Source: a virus
DNA: 33,809 nucleotides
IMG/VR virus record: IMGVR_UViG_3300042879_003265
Coordinates: 1-33,809 of that record
Direction: 5' to 3' (one strand)
The number at the start of each line of letters is the position of its first letter. Position 1 is the first letter of the stretch. This document shows, piece after piece, positions 11,546-33,643 of the stretch. The notes beneath the pieces are model-generated. The model had not been told where the DNA came from, did no database searches, and worked only from the letters and a program-made list of their open reading frames with translations. The translations under genes were made by a program, and so were the position numbers.

Positions 11546-13326
11546 TCGGTCAGAAGTTCAAAGGTTGTCATTCCTGTTTTGAGGTTATGCTCCACGCTCA
11601 TAATCCATCCTCTTGTGCCGTTCACAACGATATAGTTCGTTGGGTTGTTGCTTATTTGATTGAATTGCGCTCGGTCAAGGGGATATTCAAATGAGAGTGA
11701 TTTTGCTATTTTGATTGGCAAGTTATTACTCAAAAAGTACCCAGCATAACGGAGGCCCAATGGCGCACGAAACAAATAATTTCTGGCCGCAAATGGATGG
11801 ATGCACGAACCGGCATAGGTGAAGGAAATAGGGTCCGCAATGATGGCGTTTTGTTGATTGTTGGAACTCGTGGTGCCTGTATGAGCCATATTCAACACGG
11901 TCTTCGGCGTTGTCAGAAGGTCGGTATTCTCTTCAAGCAAAATCCACTTGTTCTCTTGGTTTACCGAAAAGCCATAGTACAAACCTCCTATTGGGGCAGG
12001 CGAAACAATACTGCCGTTGTAATAATCATTGGGGATAAGAAAATATGGCGTTGTTCCTGCATCGCTTTCTGCGCATTGAGTGGAAGCATAGCCTGCATCT
12101 TGGTAGAAGATGGATGCATTGTTCAGCGTGGCATTGCTGTAATTCAGCACCGAGAATACCAATGGGTTGTCGGTCTTCAGCATCACATCTTTCGCATCGC
12201 TGATGGATGCGGATTGAGCGTTGCTGAAGAAATAAGGTTGCGTGTCGGCCCTTAGATACAACTGCGTCCCAGCCCTCGTGAACGAAAGGCTCAAATTAAA
12301 GAATGCGTTCATCCCCATAAAGAGCTGAGTGAAGGATATGGACGGCATTGATACGGCTGGCTCTATCAGCGAGGTGTTGGTCGTGTATAGGTTTTTTGCT
12401 CCGTAGGTAGCATCAACTGTTGACACAACAGTCACCGTGCTGGCTCCTGCAAGAACATTGATTTCCGTGAAGGTTGTTCGGTGGTAAAAATAGACCTCAA
12501 CGAAATCGCCAACTCCATCAGTCGTTGCCCGTGCCGCATAAGGGAACACAATGTCTTGATAGCTATTACCTCCGCTATCTGTAAAGACCTGTTGATTCAA
12601 CACGGTGGCAATGGCCTGGGCATAGGTCGCATTATCAACAGGAGGGGCTAAGACGGGTCCCGTACCAAAGACTCTTGTAATCTCGTTGCCATAAACATCA
12701 ATCCACTTCATCTCTAAGGGAAACCCTGCTCCTCCGGCATAAACACATTTAAGTTGAATGAATTGAGGTCGGTAATTGGTATTGGTGAAAATGTCGCTTT
12801 GAAAGATGGTGGTATTGTCGGTCAGGTAGCTAACGACATACTGAAACAACTCCGACATCTTAAAGGCAAACCTATTGCCGTAGGTTGGCCCGGTAGCAAA
12901 TTGATAGGATGCACAGTTGCTCAATCCTTGCCCATTTACGGTTTGCCCATTCACCGAGTTGATTGGAACAAGCAAGTCCTTCATCCGAATCAATCTCCCT
13001 TGAACGGTATCGTCCTCCACCGAGCAAGTCGCAATGCACTTGTATGAATTGAACTCCACATCGCTCAAGTAAATCAAGCCACGAAAGTTCAAGCCATCGT
13101 TGCAGTCCTCAATGATTTGGCAGGAAACCTCTTTGCATAAGTCGTTGGCCTGGTAGTAGGCATAAAGAATCTCATAGCCATCGCCCCAGAACTCCAAGTC
13201 CGAAACCATCGTTGTGAATAGGCCAGGCAAGTCCTCGTTCCGCTGGATGGAGATGGCCGTGTCCTGTAAACCCATTGGCTCGTTGGCCAAGGTCTGCCCG
13301 TCAAGTATTACCGTGAAACTCGCCAT
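11542..13326 (-). CDS. Tail protein downstream of tape measure (distal tail or baseplate-like)
   Basis: A 594-residue protein beginning 'ASFTVILDGQTLANEPMGLQ'. The N-terminal 150 residues show alternating strands ('DLEFWGDGYEILYAYY', 'FRGLIYLSDVEF', 'YKCIATCSVEDD') typical of distal-tail/baseplate hub proteins; the rest is beta-rich with many Asn, Thr and Tyr. The ATG at 13326 forms TAATG with the tape-measure stop and is preferred over a TTG two codons upstream. Genes in this position usually encode the distal tail protein or the tail-associated hub. Family assignment is from context and general composition. Confidence 0.7.
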   Translation of the reverse strand: MASFTVILDGQTLANEPMGLQDTAISIQRNEDLPGLFTTMVSDLEFWGDGYEILYAYYQANDLCKEVSCQIIEDCNDGLNFRGLIYLSDVEFNSYKCIATCSVEDDTVQGRLIRMKDLLVPINSVNGQTVNGQGLSNCASYQFATGPTYGNRFAFKMSELFQYVVSYLTDNTTIFQSDIFTNTNYRPQFIQLKCVYAGGAGFPLEMKWIDVYGNEITRVFGTGPVLAPPVDNATYAQAIATVLNQQVFTDSGGNSYQDIVFPYAARATTDGVGDFVEVYFYHRTTFTEINVLAGASTVTVVSTVDATYGAKNLYTTNTSLIEPAVSMPSISFTQLFMGMNAFFNLSLSFTRAGTQLYLRADTQPYFFSNAQSASISDAKDVMLKTDNPLVFSVLNYSNATLNNASIFYQDAGYASTQCAESDAGTTPYFLIPNDYYNGSIVSPAPIGGLYYGFSVNQENKWILLEENTDLLTTPKTVLNMAHTGTTSSNNQQNAIIADPISFTYAGSCIHPFAARNYLFRAPLGLRYAGYFLSNNLPIKIAKSLSFEYPLDRAQFNQISNNPTNYIVVNGTRGWIMSVEHNLKTGMTTFELLTE

Positions 13327-17595: not shown

Positions 17596-17963
17596 GGATT
17601 GATATATTTGAATTGAAAGGAAAAGCAAGATTCTGCGGTTGGGTAAGTCGGAGCGAGGGTCAGCGGTAATCCAACGCCATCCAGGTTCGGCGAGGCACCG
17701 CCGGTGTAACTCGCATAAGCCCTTACCTCGTAGGTTCGGCCAATGGCGAAATACGCTTGGAGGTCATCAATCGTTGCGTTGGGGATGGTGATCGCTCCCG
17801 ACACGGGCGTGGCCATCGTGAAACGGAAGGGGCGGTCAAGGGCCACATCGGTAATCACAACGGCAACAGCTGCGCTTGGCGTGGTATAGCCAATCACAAC
17901 GCTATCGGCACAGATGTCAAAGGTGCCAATATCGGGGCAGTCGGTGCATTCAAGACAACTCAT
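17592..17963 (-). CDS. Small beta-rich protein after terL, function unknown
   Basis: A 123-residue protein with a Cys-rich start (MSCLECTDCPDIGTFDIC) followed by beta-type sequence rich in Thr, Ala, Val and Pro ('VAVVITDVALDRPFRF', 'RTYEVRAYASYTGG'). It has no signal peptide or membrane helix. It overlaps terL and the holin-like gene through ATGA junctions. The composition suggests a small virion component such as a head or tail decoration protein or a neck factor, but no family was recognised. A TATCTTTG box lies inside the end of terL, 100 bases upstream. Confidence 0.7.
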   Translation of the reverse strand: MSCLECTDCPDIGTFDICADSVVIGYTTPSAAVAVVITDVALDRPFRFTMATPVSGAITIPNATIDDLQAYFAIGRTYEVRAYASYTGGASPNLDGVGLPLTLAPTYPTAESCFSFQFKYINP

Positions 17964-19327
17964 CGGCTTGGTGTTTTAAGTTCGGGGACAAAATTGTTGT
18001 TAAAGTGTGTGTAACCGCTCTTTTTGAGGTGTTTAAGGTACCATTCGCTCAAGAAGCTGTTGCAAAGATACCGAAAACAGTCGGCAAAGTCGGATTGTTG
18101 GGTAATGATATATCGGTTTCGCTTTATGATGTTGCCAGCGGCATCGCACGCCACCATCTTCATGTCCCTCGCCACGCCGGGGGCCGTCTTGGGGTTTATC
18201 TTGATGTCGGGGTGGAATTGGAGCAGGTAATTGCATTGCGCCCGGCTGTTCTCGTGCTTCGGGTTCGGAGCGACCTTGATTTGCCGCTGCGCCAATCCAA
18301 GGCCCCTTGCTAATTGTTCGTAGTAGTTGGCATTGTCCCTCTGCGATAAATCGCCCCGCTTGCCCATCGCATCGCCCGTGAGCAGGCAGGAGAACAGGAA
18401 GGGGGCGTACTTGGCCTTAATGGTGTCCACCATCTTGGGGATGCTCCCATCAACGACCTGGAACTCGTCAACGATGTGAACGTGGTCCCCTTGGCTATCC
18501 GTCCACATCTGCGCCACCAGACCGCAGAAGGGTTGTAAGTTGAAGTCAAGGGAGATGTAAATGGGGAGGTTCGGGTTGAAGGAAGCGTTGTGGGTTTCGT
18601 GCTTCTTCGCTTCGTAAGAGATGAAGAAGGGGTTTTCGGGTTTCTCCTGCACCTCCCAATCGCCCTCCACGAATCGCTTGTACTCGTATTCGGGCATATT
18701 GTCCCGGAGGGATTGAAGGTAATCTTCGGGGATGTGGGGGTTGTCGGTAATCTTGGAGGGGATGTACGCCCAGGTGGGGGGAAGGTCGTTCTCCTTCCAC
18801 TTGTCGTAAATCAACTCCTTCACCCAATTATTGCTTGGGTTGCAAGTGGCCATCACCACAATGGGCGGTCGGCCTTCGCAATTCAGCCACGAACCGGCAC
18901 GCTCCAAGACCTTGTAAAGGAGTCCTTCCTGGCACTCGTTAATCTCGTCAATCCCACCGCCGTTAATCTCCAAGCCCTTGAATCGGTCAAAGTCTTTATC
19001 GGTATCGTAATTCTCGCCCATAAAGATCAACTCGGATCCGTTGGTGAACCGCACAATCTGGGCCTGCTTGTCCCAAGACGCAACGTGCATCCCTAAGCCT
19101 TGGTTCATCAGGGATGTGAAGGTCACAAGCGTTGTACGCTGAAGCGTGGGCATACTCTGCCTGATGATCACCCACCTGCTGCCGGGATATTTGGAGCAGA
19201 GGGAGATATAGGTTAGAAGGAGGCAGTAAGTCTTCCCGCCTCGGATCGCTCCACCAAAGAGGATGAATTGCTTCTCCCCCGACAAAGCCATCTTATACGC
19301 CTGACTCTGCCTCGCCGTTAGTTTCAT
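17960..19327 (-). CDS. terL: Terminase large subunit (packaging ATPase-nuclease)
   Basis: A 455-residue two-domain packaging motor. The ATPase part has Walker A 'GGAIRGGKT' (25-33), Walker B 'GGGIDEIN' (123-130) and the coupling motif 'TCNPSNN' (161-167). The nuclease part has 'ISLDFNLQPF' (Asp261), 'LLTGDAMGKRG' (Asp319) and 'SDFADCFRYL' (Asp413/Asp416), the three acidic positions of the RNase H-like fold. The ATG at 19327 is preferred to a TTG two codons upstream; the gene overlaps the small-terminase candidate by 35 bases. Confidence 0.95.
   Translation of the reverse strand: MKLTARQSQAYKMALSGEKQFILFGGAIRGGKTYCLLLTYISLCSKYPGSRWVIIRQSMPTLQRTTLVTFTSLMNQGLGMHVASWDKQAQIVRFTNGSELIFMGENYDTDKDFDRFKGLEINGGGIDEINECQEGLLYKVLERAGSWLNCEGRPPIVVMATCNPSNNWVKELIYDKWKENDLPPTWAYIPSKITDNPHIPEDYLQSLRDNMPEYEYKRFVEGDWEVQEKPENPFFISYEAKKHETHNASFNPNLPIYISLDFNLQPFCGLVAQMWTDSQGDHVHIVDEFQVVDGSIPKMVDTIKAKYAPFLFSCLLTGDAMGKRGDLSQRDNANYYEQLARGLGLAQRQIKVAPNPKHENSRAQCNYLLQFHPDIKINPKTAPGVARDMKMVACDAAGNIIKRNRYIITQQSDFADCFRYLCNSFLSEWYLKHLKKSGYTHFNNNFVPELKTPSR
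18063..18070 (-). promoter_or_regulatory. Possible internal promoter -7 box in the end of terL
   Basis: TATCTTTG on the minus strand with TTTG 14 bases upstream, 100 bases before the 123-aa gene. It lies within coding sequence, so it may be chance; the match is exact and the same octamer is used at 9053, 9760 and 22317. Confidence 0.35.
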
Positions 19328-19697
19328 CCACAATTGGTTCAGTCAACTCAAGCACAAAAGGCCCCGTGTTCGGTGCGGTGGTCTGCTGCTGGGGCTTGCC
19401 ATACAAATAGGCCAAGGCCAATTCCATCGCCCGCATATTGCCACGAATCGCCTCCGTGACCAAACGGGCAATCAACGCATCCATCCGCTTCACACCGCCA
19501 ATCGTCCTGTCCAAGTCGGCATCAAGCAAGTCCCGAATATCTCGCCTCGTGACCGTCTTAGGCTTCATAGAACGAGAGTTCAAGAGAACAGGTATCTCTG
19601 CCTTCGGTTCAGCACTCGGAACGCTCTCAGGGGCATTAGAATCATCCTCCTCAATAATCTCCACCTTCTTCTTCTTTACAAACTCATGTATCGCCAT
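19293..19697 (-). CDS. Small terminase subunit candidate
   Basis: A 134-residue protein directly before terL. A basic start and an acidic, Pro/Ser-rich linker (about 12-40) lead to a helical domain 'VTRRDIRDLLDADLDRTIGG' and 'LIARLVTEAIRGNMRAMELA' (about 85-105), ending in 'YLYGKP'. The last part resembles the helical domain of DUF5681-like proteins found next to terminases. Small terminase subunits bind the packaging site and hand it to terL. The call rests mainly on position; no clear helix-turn-helix is visible, so confidence is moderate. Confidence 0.6.
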   Translation of the reverse strand: MAIHEFVKKKKVEIIEEDDSNAPESVPSAEPKAEIPVLLNSRSMKPKTVTRRDIRDLLDADLDRTIGGVKRMDALIARLVTEAIRGNMRAMELALAYLYGKPQQQTTAPNTGPFVLELTEPIVDETNGEAESGV

Positions 19698-19704
19698 GCA
19701 CCCA

Positions 19705-19712
19705 CAAAATTA
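19705..19712 (-). promoter_or_regulatory. Promoter -7 box for the terminase/late transcript
   Basis: TAATTTTG on the minus strand, 7 bases upstream of the start of the small-terminase candidate. A TTTG lies 23 bases before it, inside the usual -33/-7 range. This probably starts the long late transcript toward position 1. Confidence 0.55.
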
Positions 19713-19740
19713 CCACAAGTCAAGTTTAATTCGCCCAAAA

Positions 19741-20899: not shown

Positions 20900-21619
20900 T
20901 TATTCCTGCATGGCTTCAGCTTCCTGTTTGCGCTCTTGCGCTTTCTCGTATGCCTGGGCTAATTTGGCGTTAAGGTTCTGGCGTTGTTTTTCTCTCTCGT
21001 CCATGTTGTGGAGCATGAGCGGCATGATTAGACCTTGGGTGGTGCCGTTGTCCTCCGGGTTGAAATATTGAACGATAACGGCCCGGTTTGCGTCTCTAAA
21101 GGTTACGATCCAGGGGCCCGCTTCCATGATTTGAGCAGCCCGGCCGATTAGCTTGGGACTTAGGCCGATTTGTCCCCCGGTTAATTGGGTCTCGGTGGAT
21201 GTTGGGAGTACGGCGGTCCATTGCGGGTATTTACCGGGGCCGTTCGCCATATCCACGGGGTCAAGGTACGGCAGGACGTCTAAGGTATTGCCTGCTTTGT
21301 CTTTGGTTTGGATCGTCTTTTGGTCCTGGTTGCAGGCTATTAGGTAAACTTTGGATCCTGTTAACTTCTTGTATTGGTCGGCGTGCAGGTAGAAATCAGC
21401 GGGTAATATTTCGGAATTACTTAGGACCTCGGATACATTGAGCCAGAATAAAGTATGGGCGTCCGTGGCTGTTGCGTACATGCCAGCGGGGCCCTGGGGT
21501 CCTTCGGGCAAAGTGCAAAATTCAACGTAATTCATGGCCTGGCGAAATGGGTCTTTACTTGCGCTAAGGTGGATTTTTGCGAAGGCTTGAGAAACGAGGG
21601 ACAAAATTTGGTTTTTCAT
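20900..21619 (-). CDS. Compact sliding-clamp-like protein (DNA polymerase III beta homologue)
   Basis: A 239-residue protein with beta-clamp landmarks in order: 'MYATATDAHTLFWL' (like the VATDGHRLA strand of clamp domains), 'KYPQWTAVLP' (like FPDYxxVLP at a domain start), 'LSPKLIGRAAQIM', a 'VTFRDANRAVIVQYF' strand pair, and 'GLIMPLML', the clamp terminal motif. Bacterial beta has about 366 residues in three domains; this length suits two, as in PCNA or T4 gp45, which form trimers. A charged helix (about 206-239) extends past the usual end. It would tether a polymerase to DNA. The homology is by eye; subunit number is inference. No polymerase gene is in the window. Confidence 0.7.
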   Translation of the reverse strand: MKNQILSLVSQAFAKIHLSASKDPFRQAMNYVEFCTLPEGPQGPAGMYATATDAHTLFWLNVSEVLSNSEILPADFYLHADQYKKLTGSKVYLIACNQDQKTIQTKDKAGNTLDVLPYLDPVDMANGPGKYPQWTAVLPTSTETQLTGGQIGLSPKLIGRAAQIMEAGPWIVTFRDANRAVIVQYFNPEDNGTTQGLIMPLMLHNMDEREKQRQNLNAKLAQAYEKAQERKQEAEAMQE

Positions 21620-21662
21620 GGTTTGGGGTTTTTAAGGGTTTAGGGTTGTTTTGGGTTTTGGT

Positions 21663-22277
21663 TTATTGTTCGTTTGGTACCTGCACTAAGGTTAGGCGGT
21701 CGTTTATTATGCGGCTCTCGTAGGTCTTAACGGTGAACGGGTTGTAATTGGGGACCTTCAAAGCGTTGATCGCTTCAATATCAAAGCGAATTTTATTAAA
21801 TCTGTTTTCGGTTCCTTTGGTGTTTGCGGCTTGGGTCAATTCCTTGAGCGGTTCGGCAAAATATGGCTTCATTTTGTCCCAATCAGAACCGCAATAAACA
21901 ACTTGAGCCTTTGCGCTTACTTTGCTGTGGAATATCATATTAATATATATATATTCTATTTCTTGAGCGGTAAACAAGGCGAAAATTTCAGGGCGTGCCA
22001 AAAATTCGGCGGTTTTATTGATTTCTTTTAAATCTCTAATATCCCTGGCTTGCGTCTTAACGTGGCCGGATTCGTTTCGGTACATTAATAAGATATCATA
22101 ATATACGTCCTTTTTAGGGGCGTTTGGGCGGCCCGTCTTGGGGTTGATCGTTTGGCTGCAATGCCTGAAGCCTTTTTTGGGGCTAAATTCTAGCCAATCG
22201 GTTTTGGTGGTTTTGGCCGTGTATCCGTATGGGTAATTTTGGGAAACGAGGCGGGCGGCGGTTGGGGTGTAATTCAT
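21663..22277 (-). CDS. Hypothetical early protein upstream of the clamp-like gene
   Basis: A 204-residue protein with a basic N-terminal half ('YTAKTTKTDWLEFSPKKGFR', 'NPKTGRPNAPKKDVYYDILL') and a helical middle ('EINKTAEFLARPEIFALFTA'). It is cotranscribed with the clamp-like gene 43 bases downstream and is the first gene of the leftward early unit; a TATCTTTG box lies 40 bases upstream and the leader carries CCCTAAA units. The basic, aromatic-rich first part could contact nucleic acid. No family was recognised. Confidence 0.75.
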   Translation of the reverse strand: MNYTPTAARLVSQNYPYGYTAKTTKTDWLEFSPKKGFRHCSQTINPKTGRPNAPKKDVYYDILLMYRNESGHVKTQARDIRDLKEINKTAEFLARPEIFALFTAQEIEYIYINMIFHSKVSAKAQVVYCGSDWDKMKPYFAEPLKELTQAANTKGTENRFNKIRFDIEAINALKVPNYNPFTVKTYESRIINDRLTLVQVPNEQ

Positions 22278-22709: not shown

Positions 22710-22739
22710 TTTTACACTTAACCCCTAAACCCTAAACCC

Positions 22740-22919
22740 ATGAACAAGCCAACAAAAAAAGAAATTCAGCACGAACGCACCAAAGATGGTTATTTGCTAT
22801 TGACCATTTGGATAGCGGGCTATCCCCTAAAGGCCAAATACCTTGGCTATACCATAAAAGAGGCCAAAAACCGATTTTGGAATACTTTGTTGACGAATCC
22901 ACTATCCCTAAATTATTAA
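22740..22919 (+). CDS. First rightward early gene, small basic protein
   Basis: 59 residues, basic (MNKPTKKEIQHERTKDGYLL at the start, then 'YLGYTIKEAKNRFWNTL'). The short strand-turn-helix ending in an aromatic/basic helix could be a small DNA- or protein-binding fold. It is preceded by the rightward promoter and a CCCTAAACCC leader directly before the ATG, the same leader type as the next genes. No family was recognised. Confidence 0.65.
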   Translation: MNKPTKKEIQHERTKDGYLLLTIWIAGYPLKAKYLGYTIKEAKNRFWNTLLTNPLSLNY

Positions 22920-22954
22920 CCCTAATTAACCCCTAAACCCTAAACCCTAAAACG

Positions 22955-23425: not shown

Positions 23426-23495
23426 ATTGGTTATCTGACGAGGCCACAAGGCCGAAACAGCCCTACGGGGCTGTAATAACCTAAACCCTAAAACA

Positions 23496-25996: not shown

Positions 25997-26032
25997 TTCA
26001 CACTTTCGTTCATAACCCTAAACCCTAATCTT

Positions 26033-26155
26033 ATGACACACGAAACCAAGGCCAAAATAAAGGCCGCCATTGCCACGGGCTACATTATGCTGACCACGAT
26101 GCTGGGCATTGCATTCTTTGGCCGATTCATCCTCGCTTTAATCCTTAACCCCTAA
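26033..26155 (+). CDS. Very small membrane protein
   Basis: 40 residues: a charged start (MTHETKAKIKAAIATG) and one long hydrophobic stretch ('YIMLTTMLGIAFFGRFILAL') ending NP. Single-pass membrane protein by pattern. The leader is CCCTAAACCCTAATCTT before the ATG and a promoter box lies upstream. Function unknown; small phage membrane proteins of this type sometimes alter host envelope properties or exclude other phages, which is inference only. Confidence 0.6.
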   Translation: MTHETKAKIKAAIATGYIMLTTMLGIAFFGRFILALILNP

Positions 26156-26165
26156 ACCCTAAACA

Positions 26166-26387
26166 ATGAACCTATTACAACAAATGAACGCAGCGGAGTA
26201 TAAGAAGCTCCTTGAGTTCAAAGAAAAATTCCCGACCCTTGGCGAGGACTTGATAAAAGTCTTGACCGACAAAATTGTTGTCATCCACCTAACCGTTGCC
26301 GAGTATGTCAGCCTATGCGATGCCTTGGGAATTTATTGCGCCCCGGCATTAAACCAAGTATTTCAAGCCTTTAAATCCAAACCATGA
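26166..26387 (+). CDS. Small helical protein before the Rad52-like gene
   Basis: 73 residues, mainly helical ('MNLLQQMNAAEYKKLLEFKE', 'GEDLIKVLTDKIVVIHLTVA'). It has a CCTAAACCCTAAACA leader and overlaps the next gene by ATGA, so it is probably coexpressed with the recombination module. No family was recognised. Confidence 0.7.
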   Translation: MNLLQQMNAAEYKKLLEFKEKFPTLGEDLIKVLTDKIVVIHLTVAEYVSLCDALGIYCAPALNQVFQAFKSKP

Positions 26388-27040
26388 AACAAAACCTCAC
26401 CGCAGAGCAGCTCGCTAAGATAGCCGAGCCTCTACCACCCGAAGCAATTTCGGCCCACCCAACAAGAACCGGGATGTCCACGATTAAGGGCATCTTCGTC
26501 ACCGAGCGACTCAACGAGGTCTTTGGTGTTGGGGAATGGATGGTCAAGACCAAACTCTTGGCCCCAATCTCCATCATCGTCAAGACAACATCCTCTGGCA
26601 GGGAGCGCACCGAGTACACCGCTCTCTCCAAGACCATCCTTGAAATCCCATCCGCAGGCATCTATTACGAGTGCATAGCCTCGTCCACGAACGATGATAT
26701 GGGCGATGCTGCGAAGGGAGCGACAACGGATGCCATCACCAAAATCGCCTCTTGGATTGGGATTGGGATTGATGTTTACAAAGGCAAGCACGGTGCGCCG
26801 GTCATCCCTGCAAAGCCCTATCAAGCCCCTCCAAGGAACGATGTGGCTCCTCCAACCAAGACCCGCACCACGGCACCCGTCATCATCCCTGCCGGTCTGC
26901 AAAAGATTCACCAAGAATACATCTTGGAGCGTGCGGTCAAGGCCACCGACCAAGAACGCAACGACCCACGGTTCGCCCCGACCGAGGATTGGACTGAAGA
27001 GCGTTACCGCAAGGGGATTGAATACTTTAAAAATCGTTAA
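26384..27040 (+). CDS. Rad52-family single-strand annealing protein
   Basis: 218 residues. The core signature 'STIKGIFVTERLNEVFGVGE' then 'WMVKTKLL' and 'YYECIASSTNDDMGDAAKGA' with 'TTDAITKIASWIGIGIDVYK' (about 104-133) is the Rad52/22 annealing domain; the 'GDAAKGA-TDA' run and 'GIGIDVY' are its clearest marks. Such proteins anneal complementary single strands in phage recombination and replication restart. A Pro-rich linker leads to a small C-terminal helical part ('ERYRKGIEYFKNR') that could bind partners such as SSB. It is followed by a 147-aa gene 2 bases later. No exonuclease partner sits alongside; the VRR-NUC gene at 33239 may act in the same pathway. Confidence 0.88.
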   Translation: MKQNLTAEQLAKIAEPLPPEAISAHPTRTGMSTIKGIFVTERLNEVFGVGEWMVKTKLLAPISIIVKTTSSGRERTEYTALSKTILEIPSAGIYYECIASSTNDDMGDAAKGATTDAITKIASWIGIGIDVYKGKHGAPVIPAKPYQAPPRNDVAPPTKTRTTAPVIIPAGLQKIHQEYILERAVKATDQERNDPRFAPTEDWTEERYRKGIEYFKNR

Positions 27041-29585: not shown

Positions 29586-30176
29586 ATGCGACCCAACCCC
29601 GAATGCTACCTTGACCAGGACGAGTATGTCAAAGACCTGGAGGATTATGTGGACAAAATTGAGCGAGAAAACTTGATTTTTCAACAAAACCTCCTATATA
29701 TATATAATTATATAGACAATTCTATACATATAAATAATACTAATACTCTAAACACTCTAAAGGGTAGAGATAAAGGAGGGGGTGTGGGGGAGGAAAAAGA
29801 GAAGGGAACGTCCAAATACTCCAACAAAAACATCCGCAGGAACTCTAAACACTCCCAAGAAGAAATGATGGCTATGTTTGAGGGCTTCTGGAACTTCTAT
29901 GACAAGAAGGTCGGTAAGGACAAAGCCATCCTCGCTTGGTTCAAACTGAGCGATGAAGAGATTGAGAAAATCCGCAATACCCTTCCGACCTATTTAGAGG
30001 CTCACAGAGAGCGTAAGTTCCGTAAAGACCCCGTAAGATACCTAACCCATAAAGCGTTCAATGACGAGCTTCCTACGCAGTCTGGAGGCCATTCCCAACA
30101 CAAACCCTACCATTCAACCCAAAACGATGAACAACCACTCCGATTTTACACGCCTCCCAGCGGAATTGTACGCTGA
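29586..30176 (+). CDS. Replication initiation or helicase-loader-like protein
   Basis: 196 residues. A coiled-coil start ('YVKDLEDYVDKIERENLIFQ'), an Asn/Ile-rich low-complexity linker, and a C-terminal domain with 'FEGFWNFYDKKVGKDKAILA' and 'FRKDPVRYLTHKAFNDE', a pattern often seen at the end of phage replication proteins that recruit the DnaB helicase. The helicase gene starts inside it, 50 bases before its end. The linker is encoded by a very AT-rich tract (29690-29755) that could be the origin, as in lambda O. The domain call is by motif; the origin idea is inference. Confidence 0.65.
   Translation: MRPNPECYLDQDEYVKDLEDYVDKIERENLIFQQNLLYIYNYIDNSIHINNTNTLNTLKGRDKGGGVGEEKEKGTSKYSNKNIRRNSKHSQEEMMAMFEGFWNFYDKKVGKDKAILAWFKLSDEEIEKIRNTLPTYLEAHRERKFRKDPVRYLTHKAFNDELPTQSGGHSQHKPYHSTQNDEQPLRFYTPPSGIVR
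29690..29755. other. AT-rich tract inside the replication gene, possible origin
   Basis: About 65 bases almost free of G and C, containing ATATAGACAATTCTATA (29710-29726), close to the unit of the 19-bp array at 19822-19913 (ATATAGACATCTATAT). AT-rich unwinding sequence in a replication gene next to the helicase gene fits a phage origin. Confidence 0.45.
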
Positions 30177-31497
30177 ATACCAAGACCGACTCCTCGGCAT
30201 CCTCATTTGCGAAATCATCAAGCCGGGGGATATCGTCCTCCAACTCCGAGAGGAGTATTTTGATGAAGGAATCCGCAAGAATACCTTCAAAGCCATTCGG
30301 AGCCTTCGGGCCGAGGACAAGCCCATCAACACGCTGACCGTCCGTTCACGGATGATTGAGATGAATGTCCCCACCGATGTGGTGTTCCTTGCAAGCCTTG
30401 ACTCAGGGCTTTATTCCCACGATGGATGGAAGGTGTACCGGTACGAATTGCATTGCCGGTACATCCACGACCAAATTGAGAAGACCAAGATTGACTTTCT
30501 CAAGCACCAGGATGTTGATCGCCTCTACAAGGAAATCCAAGACATCAAGTCTTTAGACCCCGACCCGATTGCTACCGAGGTTCACGAATTGCTCTTGGGC
30601 TTTATGATGGGCCTCAACGAGGTCATCACGGGAGCGAAGGACAACAGCATCACCCGAACCTTTCATCACAACACCGACAGCCTGATAACGGGCTTCAAGC
30701 CTTCGGAGTTCATCATCCTGGGTGGCCGTCCTGCAATGGGCAAAACCACCTTGGCCCTGCAATACGCTCTCAACCAAGCGATGAACAAAAAGCCTGTGGC
30801 CTTCTTCACCTTGGAGATGTCCACGGAGCAACTGATGACCCGATTGGTTTCCAACCTTGCCGAGGTGGATGGAGAGGTCTTCCTGGACATCAAGGAACGG
30901 ATGAATGGTCAAGACTTTTTGGCCATCTCTCAGCACATTGATAAGGTCAAAGGCGCACCGTTGCACGTTGTGGATGTCCCCGGCATTGACCCTCAGCGGA
31001 TGGAATTGGAGTTGATAAAACTCATCAAGAAGCACAAGATTGAAGGGGCATACATTGATTACCTCCAACTGATTTCTCCCCTGCCAGAAGACCGAGGCAA
31101 GCCCCGAATTGACCAAGTGACCAACATCTCCAAGTACATCAAGACCATCTGCAAGAGGCTCAACATTTGGATTTGCTTGGTGTCATCGTTGTCCAGGGGC
31201 GTGGAGCAGAGGGACTCCAAGCGTCCCAAACCGAGCGACCTGCGTGAAACGGGCCAACTTGAATATGATGCCGACAAGATTCTGTTCGTGTATCGTCCTT
31301 CCGAGTATATGGAAGACCACGATCCCCAAAAGCAAGAACTCATTGACCTCCTTGAAATCCTTGTGAGGAAGAATCGGAATGGGAAGATTGGCACGGCTAT
31401 GGGGAAAATTAAACTTCAATACACAAAAGTGTTGGATTTTAATGGAAACATTCCTACCTTTGAGGAGAAGATTCAAACCCTAAAAGCGCCATTCTGA
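30127..31497 (+). CDS. Replicative DNA helicase, DnaB-like
   Basis: A 456-residue DnaB-family helicase. The N-terminal domain (about 1-115) is followed by a linker, then the RecA-like motor: Walker A 'GGRPAMGKTT' (199-208), 'FTLEMSTEQLMTRLVSNLAE', Walker B 'AYIDYLQL' (308-315), 'SSLSRGVEQRDSKRPKPSDL' (353-372), 'ETGQLEYDADKILFVYRP' and 'VRKNRNGKIG' with the arginine-finger region. The ATG at 30127 follows a CAACCCAAAACG leader and overlaps the loader-like gene by 50 bases; an earlier in-frame start is less likely. Unwinds DNA ahead of the fork as a hexamer. Confidence 0.93.
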   Translation: MNNHSDFTRLPAELYAEYQDRLLGILICEIIKPGDIVLQLREEYFDEGIRKNTFKAIRSLRAEDKPINTLTVRSRMIEMNVPTDVVFLASLDSGLYSHDGWKVYRYELHCRYIHDQIEKTKIDFLKHQDVDRLYKEIQDIKSLDPDPIATEVHELLLGFMMGLNEVITGAKDNSITRTFHHNTDSLITGFKPSEFIILGGRPAMGKTTLALQYALNQAMNKKPVAFFTLEMSTEQLMTRLVSNLAEVDGEVFLDIKERMNGQDFLAISQHIDKVKGAPLHVVDVPGIDPQRMELELIKLIKKHKIEGAYIDYLQLISPLPEDRGKPRIDQVTNISKYIKTICKRLNIWICLVSSLSRGVEQRDSKRPKPSDLRETGQLEYDADKILFVYRPSEYMEDHDPQKQELIDLLEILVRKNRNGKIGTAMGKIKLQYTKVLDFNGNIPTFEEKIQTLKAPF

Positions 31498-31752: not shown

Positions 31753-31911
31753 ATGAAATACGTTGGAAAGTGCGATAAGCACGGCCTGATACAACACGAT
31801 GTGACCCAGGCACAAATAGACATCAAGGGCGGTCCGTATTGCCCCTATTGCGGTTCTCTCGTTGATGTCATCGCAAAAAACACCGACAACAAAAAGCCCA
31901 AGACCAAATGA
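31753..31911 (+). CDS. Small zinc-ribbon protein
   Basis: 52 residues with Cys7, His10 and 'CPYCGS' (about 29-34), followed by a basic Lys/Asn tail. Looks like a single small zinc ribbon. The ATG at 31753 is 7 bases after the previous stop; a longer in-frame extension would lie within the preceding gene and is rejected. It overlaps the next gene by ATGA. Confidence 0.65.
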   Translation: MKYVGKCDKHGLIQHDVTQAQIDIKGGPYCPYCGSLVDVIAKNTDNKKPKTK

Positions 31912-32429
31912 TAGGAAAGATTGAACACACAATGGCCGAAGACATTATCGGCATTGTATCGGATTACTACGGAATCCACAAGGACAAGTTGTTCAGCAAG
32001 ACCCGTTTGTGGGATGTCGTTCACGCAAGGCAAGTGGCCTGCTATATGATTCGCAAGTACACCAACATCCCCAAGCTTGCGATTGGAAGGCAATACTTCA
32101 ACCAAGACCACTCCACCATCATCCATTCAATTCGGGCGGTTGAGAGGGATATTATGACCGATTACCGAGGCACGGAACGAGATGTCCAGGCCATCACCCA
32201 GGCGATTGAAGACCAACAGTCTGTCAGGATAAAAAAAGACCAAAGCAAGTATGTTGTCTTGCTGAAATTCAAGGCCGAGCCAGAGATGTATTTTGGCCCA
32301 GAGATGTATTTTGGCCCTTGGGAAACCGCTGAAATAGCGAACCAAATGTTGCAAGACAGAATAAAGCCGATGTTGGATATGAATGAGTGTGAGTCGGCTA
32401 CCGTTATCAAAGTGACTTCCATAGAATGA
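31908..32429 (+). CDS. Stand-alone DnaA domain IV-like DNA-binding protein
   Basis: 173 residues. Residues 10-82 follow the C-terminal DNA-binding domain of DnaA: 'IVSDYYGIHKDKLFSKTRLW', 'VVHARQVACYMIRKYTNIPK', and 'AIGRQYFNQDHSTIIHSIRA' with the DHST (67-70) of the DnaA-box-binding signature. There is no ATPase domain, so it cannot act as a full initiator; it might bind origin boxes, help load the helicase, or compete with host DnaA. The second half is unrelated and holds a six-residue in-frame duplication (PEMYFG twice). Overlaps both neighbours by ATGA. Confidence 0.82.
   Translation: MIGKIEHTMAEDIIGIVSDYYGIHKDKLFSKTRLWDVVHARQVACYMIRKYTNIPKLAIGRQYFNQDHSTIIHSIRAVERDIMTDYRGTERDVQAITQAIEDQQSVRIKKDQSKYVVLLKFKAEPEMYFGPEMYFGPWETAEIANQMLQDRIKPMLDMNECESATVIKVTSIE
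32281..32316. repeat. 18-bp in-frame tandem duplication
   Basis: CAGAGATGTATTTTGGCC repeated exactly twice (32281-32298, 32299-32316), giving PEMYFG-PEMYFG in the DnaA-domain protein. Confidence 0.9.
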
Positions 32430-33238: not shown

Positions 33239-33643
33239 ATGAAGAAATGCCCAAGCCCAAAGGTTCCCGTACAATCCGAATACGACCTCCAAAAGAGCCT
33301 ATGCCTCTACATCCGACTCAATTACCCACAAGCGATATTCACTTCTGACTTATCGGGCATACGATTGCCAATGGGCCTTGCCGTGAAAACCGCTAAACTC
33401 CGCTCGTCAAGAGCGATACCAGACCTGCTCATCTTTGAGCCAAGGAAAGGGTATCACGGCTTGTTCATTGAACTGAAGCGTCCAGGGGTGCGGTTCTTCA
33501 AGAAGAATGGCCAACCAGCAACGGAACATTTTGCCGAGCAATGGGAGATGATTCAGCGGCTCTTGAAGAAGGGCTATCTCGCTTGCACGGCCAACTCCTT
33601 TGATTCGGCCAAGGCCATCATAGACAGCTATTTCACCGAATAA
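33239..33643 (+). CDS. VRR-NUC domain nuclease
   Basis: 134 residues matching the phage VRR-NUC nuclease form: an early 'QSEYDLQKSLCLYIR', then 'AIPDLLIFEPRKGYHGLFIE' with Asp62, Glu78 and Lys80 (the PD-(D/E)xK core), and 'EQWEMIQRLLKKGYLACTAN' with Gln101. Such enzymes act on branched or structured DNA, for instance Holliday-junction-like intermediates. It would fit with the Rad52-like and helicase genes in this arm. The ATG is 6 bases after the previous stop. Confidence 0.85.
   Translation: MKKCPSPKVPVQSEYDLQKSLCLYIRLNYPQAIFTSDLSGIRLPMGLAVKTAKLRSSRAIPDLLIFEPRKGYHGLFIELKRPGVRFFKKNGQPATEHFAEQWEMIQRLLKKGYLACTANSFDSAKAIIDSYFTE

Follow-up and report, generated by a model that had tools for sequence, protein, structure and literature searches.

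A widespread phage protein reduced from the DnaN sliding clamp keeps the partner-peptide pocket positions and lacks the ring interface

The viral record IMGVR_UViG_3300042879_003265 (33,809 bases, classed linear, and analysed here over its full length as the window) encodes a 239-residue protein that alignment identifies as a reduced form of the bacterial beta clamp DnaN. It carries three of the six DnaN motifs, followed by a charged C-terminal helix. The parts that form the partner-peptide pocket of the clamp are kept and those that close the ring are lost, both in this protein and in a large set of short phage relatives. We tentatively favor the view, to which we would give a little less than an even chance, that the protein is a soluble or partner-bound module capturing clamp-binding peptides and not a ring of the DnaN type. 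The gene and the segments of its product are located as follows.

20900..21619, minus strand: half-clamp coding sequence, 239 residues, stop included, an ATG-started ORF
21437..21613, minus strand: motif 1, residues 3-61, corresponding to the first beta-alpha-beta-beta-beta motif of DnaN domain 2 (alignment and AF2)
21203..21412, minus strand: motif 2, residues 70-139, corresponding to the second motif of DnaN domain 2 (alignment and AF2)
21008..21175, minus strand: motif 3, residues 149-204, corresponding to the second motif of DnaN domain 3 (alignment and AF2)
20906..21007, minus strand: charged C-terminal helix, residues 205-238 (AF2 helix 206-238, pLDDT about 68-82)

The 239-residue protein described in the initial annotation is the product of a real gene. 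The coordinates of the ORF are exact, it starts with ATG and it is found in 12 other viral contigs with 77-88% identity. Pairwise dN/dS values against the window are 0.13-0.26 in nine of these contigs, L004, L005 and L007 having been left out. The ORF is thus a selected, functional coding gene.

The link of this protein to DnaN is transitive and goes through a phage family. On its own, the window protein matches no Pfam family and no NCBIfam family. A profile of eight full-length clamps does not match it, and a sequence search of the PDB only returned a chance match to SPT16 (E 1.3). The protein does match phrog_3007 of PHROGs with an E-value of 8.9e-8, and the same match is obtained in all eight related records tested. 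When a profile was made from short phage clamp proteins that do not belong to the window clade (23 sequences), the clamp ORF was its sole match among the 248 ORFs of the window (E 1e-7 at Z=10000); 2000 shuffled sequences gave no match. On the other side of the link, the phrog_3007 profile matches residues 136-302 of E. coli DnaN with an E-value of 6.5e-24. Compared profile to profile, 14 short phage proteins and four full-length DnaN proteins give a probability of 99.7% and an E-value of 2.3e-26; the probability is only 5.3 when the ten closest members of the window clade are compared alone with DnaN. The DnaN central domain, PF02767, is recognized in all 12 full-length records and in 17 of the 21 short-form ones, and is not matched in the window. 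Through the phage family, these profiles assign the protein to the beta-clamp superfamily, so that the earlier proposal of a short bacterial-type clamp is upheld as far as a DnaN-like homologue is concerned. The beginning, middle and end motifs of DnaN that had been claimed for the protein are also present. In the alignment with E. coli DnaN, R26/M29 correspond to R152/L155, T52-D53-A54-H55 to T172-D173-G174-H175, G129-x-Y-P132 to G239-x-F-P242 and M199-P200 to M362-P363.

The architecture was derived from an alignment of 33 short phage proteins, including that of the window, with eight full-length clamps. Motif 1 holds the pocket residues R26, M29 and T52-L57, and is modeled as strand 3-6, helix 10-19 and strands 31-37, 46-52 and 57-61. 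Motif 2 (strand 76-79, helix 80-83, strands 93-97, 102-106 and 112-117) has at its C-terminal end the G-K-Y-P-Q-W...V137 element. The first motif of DnaN domain 3 is missing before motif 3. The latter, which ends with the L-I-M-P-L-M-L element, is modeled as helix 155-164 and strands 170-173, 181-186 and 194-199, its first strand being absent from the model assignment. All 33 short proteins show these three motifs, without DnaN domain 1 and without the first motif of domain 3. The columns from P249 to G318 of E. coli DnaN illustrate the second loss: 8-12 residues are found there in the five short members measured (12 in the window protein) against 68 in DnaN. The profile-profile alignment accordingly has one long gap at the place of this motif. 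The protein had been described as being of two-domain size, but its core of about 204 residues amounts to one and a half domains, and about 35 of the 239 residues form the tail.

The charged tail helix, already pointed out as an added feature in the initial annotation, is predicted at residues 206-238 by AF2 and is absent from EP23-type relatives in the alignment. The ten proteins of the window clade are 238-242 residues long and the other 23 are 165-220 residues long. The tail helix and loops account for the difference from the shortest relatives, and those of 165-182 residues are entirely devoid of a tail. We rejected the idea of an amphipathic packing helix, since the hydrophobic moment of the tail was equalled or exceeded in 545 of 2000 shuffles.

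Structure prediction had been put forward as a check of the clamp assignment, to be refuted if no clamp fold was predicted; a clamp fold is what it returned. The window protein was modeled twice with AF2 (pLDDT 62.5 and 71.4; pTM 0.64 and 0.68); both models show three motif units and the helix at 206-238, and support with moderate confidence a fold built of beta-alpha-beta-beta-beta motifs. With the first model, beta clamps occupy all 50 matches listed, counting entry 5x06, titled 'DNA replication regulation protein', which we take to be a clamp complex from its matched range. The best structural Z-score is 11.6, to bacterial beta clamps, in the lists of both models (in the second, with rmsd 4.0 and 177 residues aligned). 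A few archaeal PCNA structures appear in the list of the second model, for instance 1rwz (Z 9.4, rmsd 3.9, 169 residues aligned). About 165-181 residues are paired in the structural alignments, over a span of two DnaN domains. A minority of these alignments, such as those with 8dj6_A and 1vpk, put the model on domains 1-2, so that the identity of the kept motifs is fixed by sequence alignment and not by structure alone. With Foldseek, superposition on DnaN gave an rmsd of ~13 Å and TM-scores <0.41 among the matches listed. Among predicted viral structures, the closest come mostly from phage proteins about 160-215 residues long, and several of these bear the name pol III beta chain.

We then considered what the retained parts do in DnaN, using the E. 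coli pocket (18 residues), dimer-interface (13 residues) and DNA-contact (six residues) lists given in PMC11139829. With this list, all 18 pocket positions are occupied in all 33 short proteins. Of the 20 retained positions with the highest conservation, ten belong to the pocket, which accounts for 18 of the 145 retained columns overall, and the entropy of the pocket positions is lower than that of the other retained columns (1.18 vs 2.22, Mann-Whitney p 1e-5). In the window protein, eight of the 18 listed pocket residues are identical to those of E. coli, against 21 of the 127 other retained columns (Fisher p 0.011). Several changes are conservative, and R176, R246 and R365 are replaced. Over the same positions, identity to E. 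coli is 6-9 of 18 in the ten members of the window clade and 10-16 of 18 in the 23 others. The window clade thus appears to have the most altered pocket of the set. Because the three arginines are lost, its protein may bind something else, or little.

The interface and the DNA contacts behave differently from the pocket. The listed interface positions are K74, I78, R96, R103, R105 and F106 on one side and I272, L273, E298, E300, E301, E303 and E304 on the other. Twelve of these 13 are empty in all 33 short proteins. The position of E303 is occupied in 15 of the 33, by what we read as linker residues, and is empty in the window protein. Five of the six listed DNA contacts, all in the missing domain 1, are empty in every short protein; the sole position present, Q149, is an aspartate in the window. 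Compared with a full-length DnaN, the window protein therefore has neither the three domains nor the dimer interface. A split clamp, with its other half in another gene, was also considered and rejected. In a profile search of 33 records, PF00712, which describes DnaN domain 1, was matched in none of the 21 short-form records, window included, and in 11 of the 12 full-length ones, the test having missed one full-length clamp, so that it may overlook a half that has diverged strongly.

In DnaN, it is the three motifs retained here that build the peptide pocket used by Pol III, by the clamp loader subunit delta and by other partners, and the lost parts are those that close the DnaN dimer ring and provide most of the named DNA contacts. 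A ringless pocket of this kind would bind the clamp-binding peptides of host replication proteins, as a decoy or as an adaptor. As a decoy, it would deprive host DnaN of delta or Pol III alpha by titrating them. As an adaptor, it would pass these host enzymes on to the replisome that the phage assembles with its DnaB helicase. According to PMC11139829, a monomeric DnaN mutant binds delta ~50 times tighter than the dimer does; a pocket protein that forms no ring could therefore be efficient at titration. Several observations weigh against this reading. Pocket conservation is also seen in full-length clamps, and the pocket alone can therefore not separate an adaptor from a ring. The pocket of the window clade is degraded, and a direct profile link from DnaN to the window protein is missing. 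The family A polymerases and the phage PhiXhv-1 gene order described below would fit a processivity factor. More tentatively still, the proposal may be extended to hundreds of tailed phages: they would carry a pocket-only half-clamp that catches clamp-binding peptides of the host, chiefly those of delta and Pol III alpha, so that host replication is halted or diverted. Within this set, the window clade would be a branch that has diverged far, gained a helix and changed its pocket.

The polymerase content of the records bears on these questions. Profiles of family A, B and C polymerases have no match in the window, in line with the initial annotation, which saw no polymerase there, although the record may be incomplete. 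Among the 33 records surveyed, several of which are fragments, family C and family B polymerases are absent throughout (0/33). Family A polymerases occur in nine of the 21 short-form records and in none of the 12 full-length ones (Fisher p 0.012, uncorrected for shared ancestry). In Xanthomonas phage PhiXhv-1, the gene order is helicase, short clamp, 'DNA polymerase I'. Judging from gene content, the short clamp is independent of a phage polymerase of families A, B and C, though it often stands alongside one. Clamp-binding peptides, the search for which had also been suggested earlier, are not enriched in the window's own proteins (one pentamer-type match vs 3.3 expected and two hexamer-type matches vs 2.6), so no phage partner was identified.

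Clamps have a whole number of domains per subunit, with two subunits of three domains in bacteria and three subunits of two in phage T4 and in eukaryotes. A widespread phage form of one and a half domains breaks this rule, and would be either a new kind of ring or a fragment with another job. The main rival to the peptide-capturing module is a new ring, a true sliding clamp closing as a homotetramer, which we hold to be unlikely. Since motifs alternate in direction around a clamp ring, neighboring subunits would probably need opposite orientations, and both faces of the ring would then be the same. Three motifs in each of four subunits would make up the twelve motifs of known rings, in keeping with the six domains ascribed to every clamp ring, regardless of subunit number, in PMC9690074. 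The association of short forms with family A polymerases also suits such a ring. However, the five domain-1 DNA contacts and 12 of the 13 interface positions are absent, so that new interfaces would be needed; the ring would require a loader; and the window phage, like 11 other short-form records, lacks a family A polymerase. The loss of the ring interface and the presence of these polymerases, together with the PhiXhv-1 gene order, could also point to a non-ring processivity subunit sitting directly on a polymerase, like herpesvirus UL42. We regard this as distinctly improbable. Non-ring clamps are described in PMC9690074 as rich in positive charge and as binding DNA directly, but the window protein has a net charge of -4 and the members of its clade -2 to -7, an acidic character that makes a UL42-like subunit less likely, and no polymerase is seen in the window, even if the record may not be complete.

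Three further readings carry much less weight. A role in phage late transcription would follow the precedent of T4 gp45 with gp33 and gp55, reported in PMC9690074. It draws on the short gene being placed among structural genes in EP23, C1, RS10pmA, Shewanella phage 1/41 and Bcep781. In those five phages, however, the short gene has the reverse orientation to the structural genes around it, and the leader of the window clamp resembles that of the early-looking right-hand genes and not that of the structural genes; we see this role as very unlikely. A two-domain clamp trimerizing like PCNA or T4 gp45 had been proposed in the initial annotation. PCNA and gp45 share the clamp fold and a total length close to 239 residues, and the structural matches listed for the second model include archaeal PCNA chains. 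Yet PCNA and gp45 are trimers of two full domains, that is four motifs, while the window protein and its 32 relatives have three; about 35 residues of the total are tail helix, which the relatives of 165-182 residues do without. A gp45-like trimer would thus contain nine motifs and not twelve, and the argument from size fails. This leaves the trimer scarcely credible, and the supposed evolutionary bridge between DnaN and PCNA or gp45 gives way to a reduced DnaN with three motifs and no domain 1. Finally, the name attached to phrog_3007, and carried over into RefSeq phage records, is that of a RusA-like Holliday junction resolvase. We give this identity practically no credence: the profile of that very family matches E. 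coli DnaN, a Pfam scan of a 12-member set with E up to 10 returned only P22_portal and DNA_pol3_beta_2 and no RusA family, and both AF2 models match clamps. The PHROGs label is apparently wrong for the phrog_3007 family.

In PHROGs v4, phrog_3007 and phrog_12598 are both named 'RusA-like Holliday junction resolvase' and both match DnaN-type clamps; this common database label is probably wrong for many phage proteins. As to the five phages above, which look unrelated (L024, L025, L026, L042, L043), the short clamp stands alone and reversed inside the structural block of each, like an inserted extra gene.

Short phage proteins annotated as 'DNA polymerase III beta subunit' are already widespread. 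Those of phrog_3007, for example Shigella phage EP23 p08, Burkholderia phage Bcep781 gp15 and Vibrio phage 1.115 gp46, share the three-motif architecture and the profile family of the window protein, which is about 14-22% identical to the other short clades. The Bcep781 record itself reads 'DNA Pol III b subunit fragment'. With the Vibrio phage 1.115 protein as a query, tblastn (E up to 1) found matches in 290 records out of 50,697 from phages; in 142 cases, the match spanned 80% or more of the query. Compared with other phrog_3007 proteins, the window clade has gained the long charged helix and lost R176, R246 and R365 of the pocket. With DnaN (E. coli dnaN; PF00712/PF02767; phrog_947), the window protein shares domain 2 and the second motif of domain 3, whereas domain 1 and the first motif of domain 3 exist in DnaN only. 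A search of mainly open-access literature, judged by titles and abstract starts, found no paper describing a three-motif phage clamp. Gp168 of Staphylococcus phage Twort inhibits the host clamp. This protein, whose complex with the beta clamp (PDB 7evp) is listed among the structural matches of the first model, would offer a functional parallel if the window product targets the host clamp system, with the difference that Gp168 binds the clamp while the window protein is itself derived from one. The combination of a kept pocket and a lost ring interface makes the fragment reading directly testable, and a pocket-only clamp, if true, would be a natural counterpart to drugs directed at the clamp pocket.

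The clamp gene lies between the terminase gene and a block of right-hand genes. The elements of this neighborhood are the following.

17960-19333: terminase large subunit, the clamp ORF being upstream of it
21632..21645, minus strand: leader made of CCCTAAA repeats, immediately 5' of the clamp start codon
21663..22277, minus strand: 204-residue ORF of no assigned function, upstream of the clamp on the same strand (ORF list)
22723-22736, 22931-22951, 23479-23492, 26016-26029 and 26150-26163, plus strand: other CCCTAAA repeats
26384-27040: Rad52-like protein, in the right-hand gene block adjoining the clamp
29586-30176: replication-initiator-like protein, right-hand block (PHROGs)
30061-31497: DnaB-type helicase, right-hand block

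The DnaB-type helicase is confirmed, in line with the replication type ascribed to this phage. The 204-residue ORF next to the clamp has a match in eight of the 12 related contigs and was not found in L002, L008, L013 and L014; searches of Pfam and PHROGs gave no clamp-family match for it. Several CCCTAAA repeats stand 3-13 bases before a start codon. With one mismatch allowed, CCCTAAACCCTAAA has seven copies in the window against 0.01 expected, and copies are found directly upstream of the clamp start and of the right-hand ORFs at 22740, 22955, 23496 and 26166. The 12 related contigs contain 73 copies in 98,865 bases, and a CCCTAAAC-type leader also precedes their clamp genes. As this leader is common to the clamp and to the right-hand ORFs, the clamp is probably expressed together with the right-hand genes. 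The repeats are perhaps a leader, an operator or part of a promoter.

A scan with a Bacteroidota-type promoter consensus gave four matches (19705-19739, 12867-12900 and 1-34 on the minus strand, 22212-22241 on the plus strand) against 1.4 expected, and five of 100 shuffles had as many. This is a weak hint of a Bacteroidota host. A scan of genome contigs with the ten closest clamp members gave 122 pattern matches and no relatives, and no prophage or host was identified.

The clamp gene is more variable than its surroundings. Its identity of 77-88% across the 12 related contigs compares with mostly 95-99% in neighboring genes, and its dS is 0.51-0.80 against 0.09-0.27 in the terminase gene, the Rad52-like gene and orf24604. 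Two terminase dN/dS rows (L001 and L013) were dropped as artefacts, with dN ~1.7 despite 97-98% protein identity. Diversifying selection on the clamp was considered and rejected. With a dN/dS of 0.13-0.26 and with dS raised too, allele exchange and looser constraint explain the variability better. Taken together, the clamp and the adjoining ORF (20900-22277) have dS values of 0.2-0.8, far above those of the three reference genes. With this high dS, and with the adjoining ORF not found in four of the 12 contigs, sequence comparison marks the segment as a local exchange hot spot.

Two other ORFs of the window deserve mention. At 33239-33643 (plus strand), a weak match to a VRR-NUC nuclease (E 0.0031) falls below the cut-off. 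Downstream of the DnaB helicase gene, 31908-32429 (plus strand) encodes a 173-residue protein that corresponds to a free-standing DnaA domain IV (Bac_DnaA_C, E 3.1e-20); the phage is thus predicted to encode a domain that binds DnaA boxes and lacks the ATPase.
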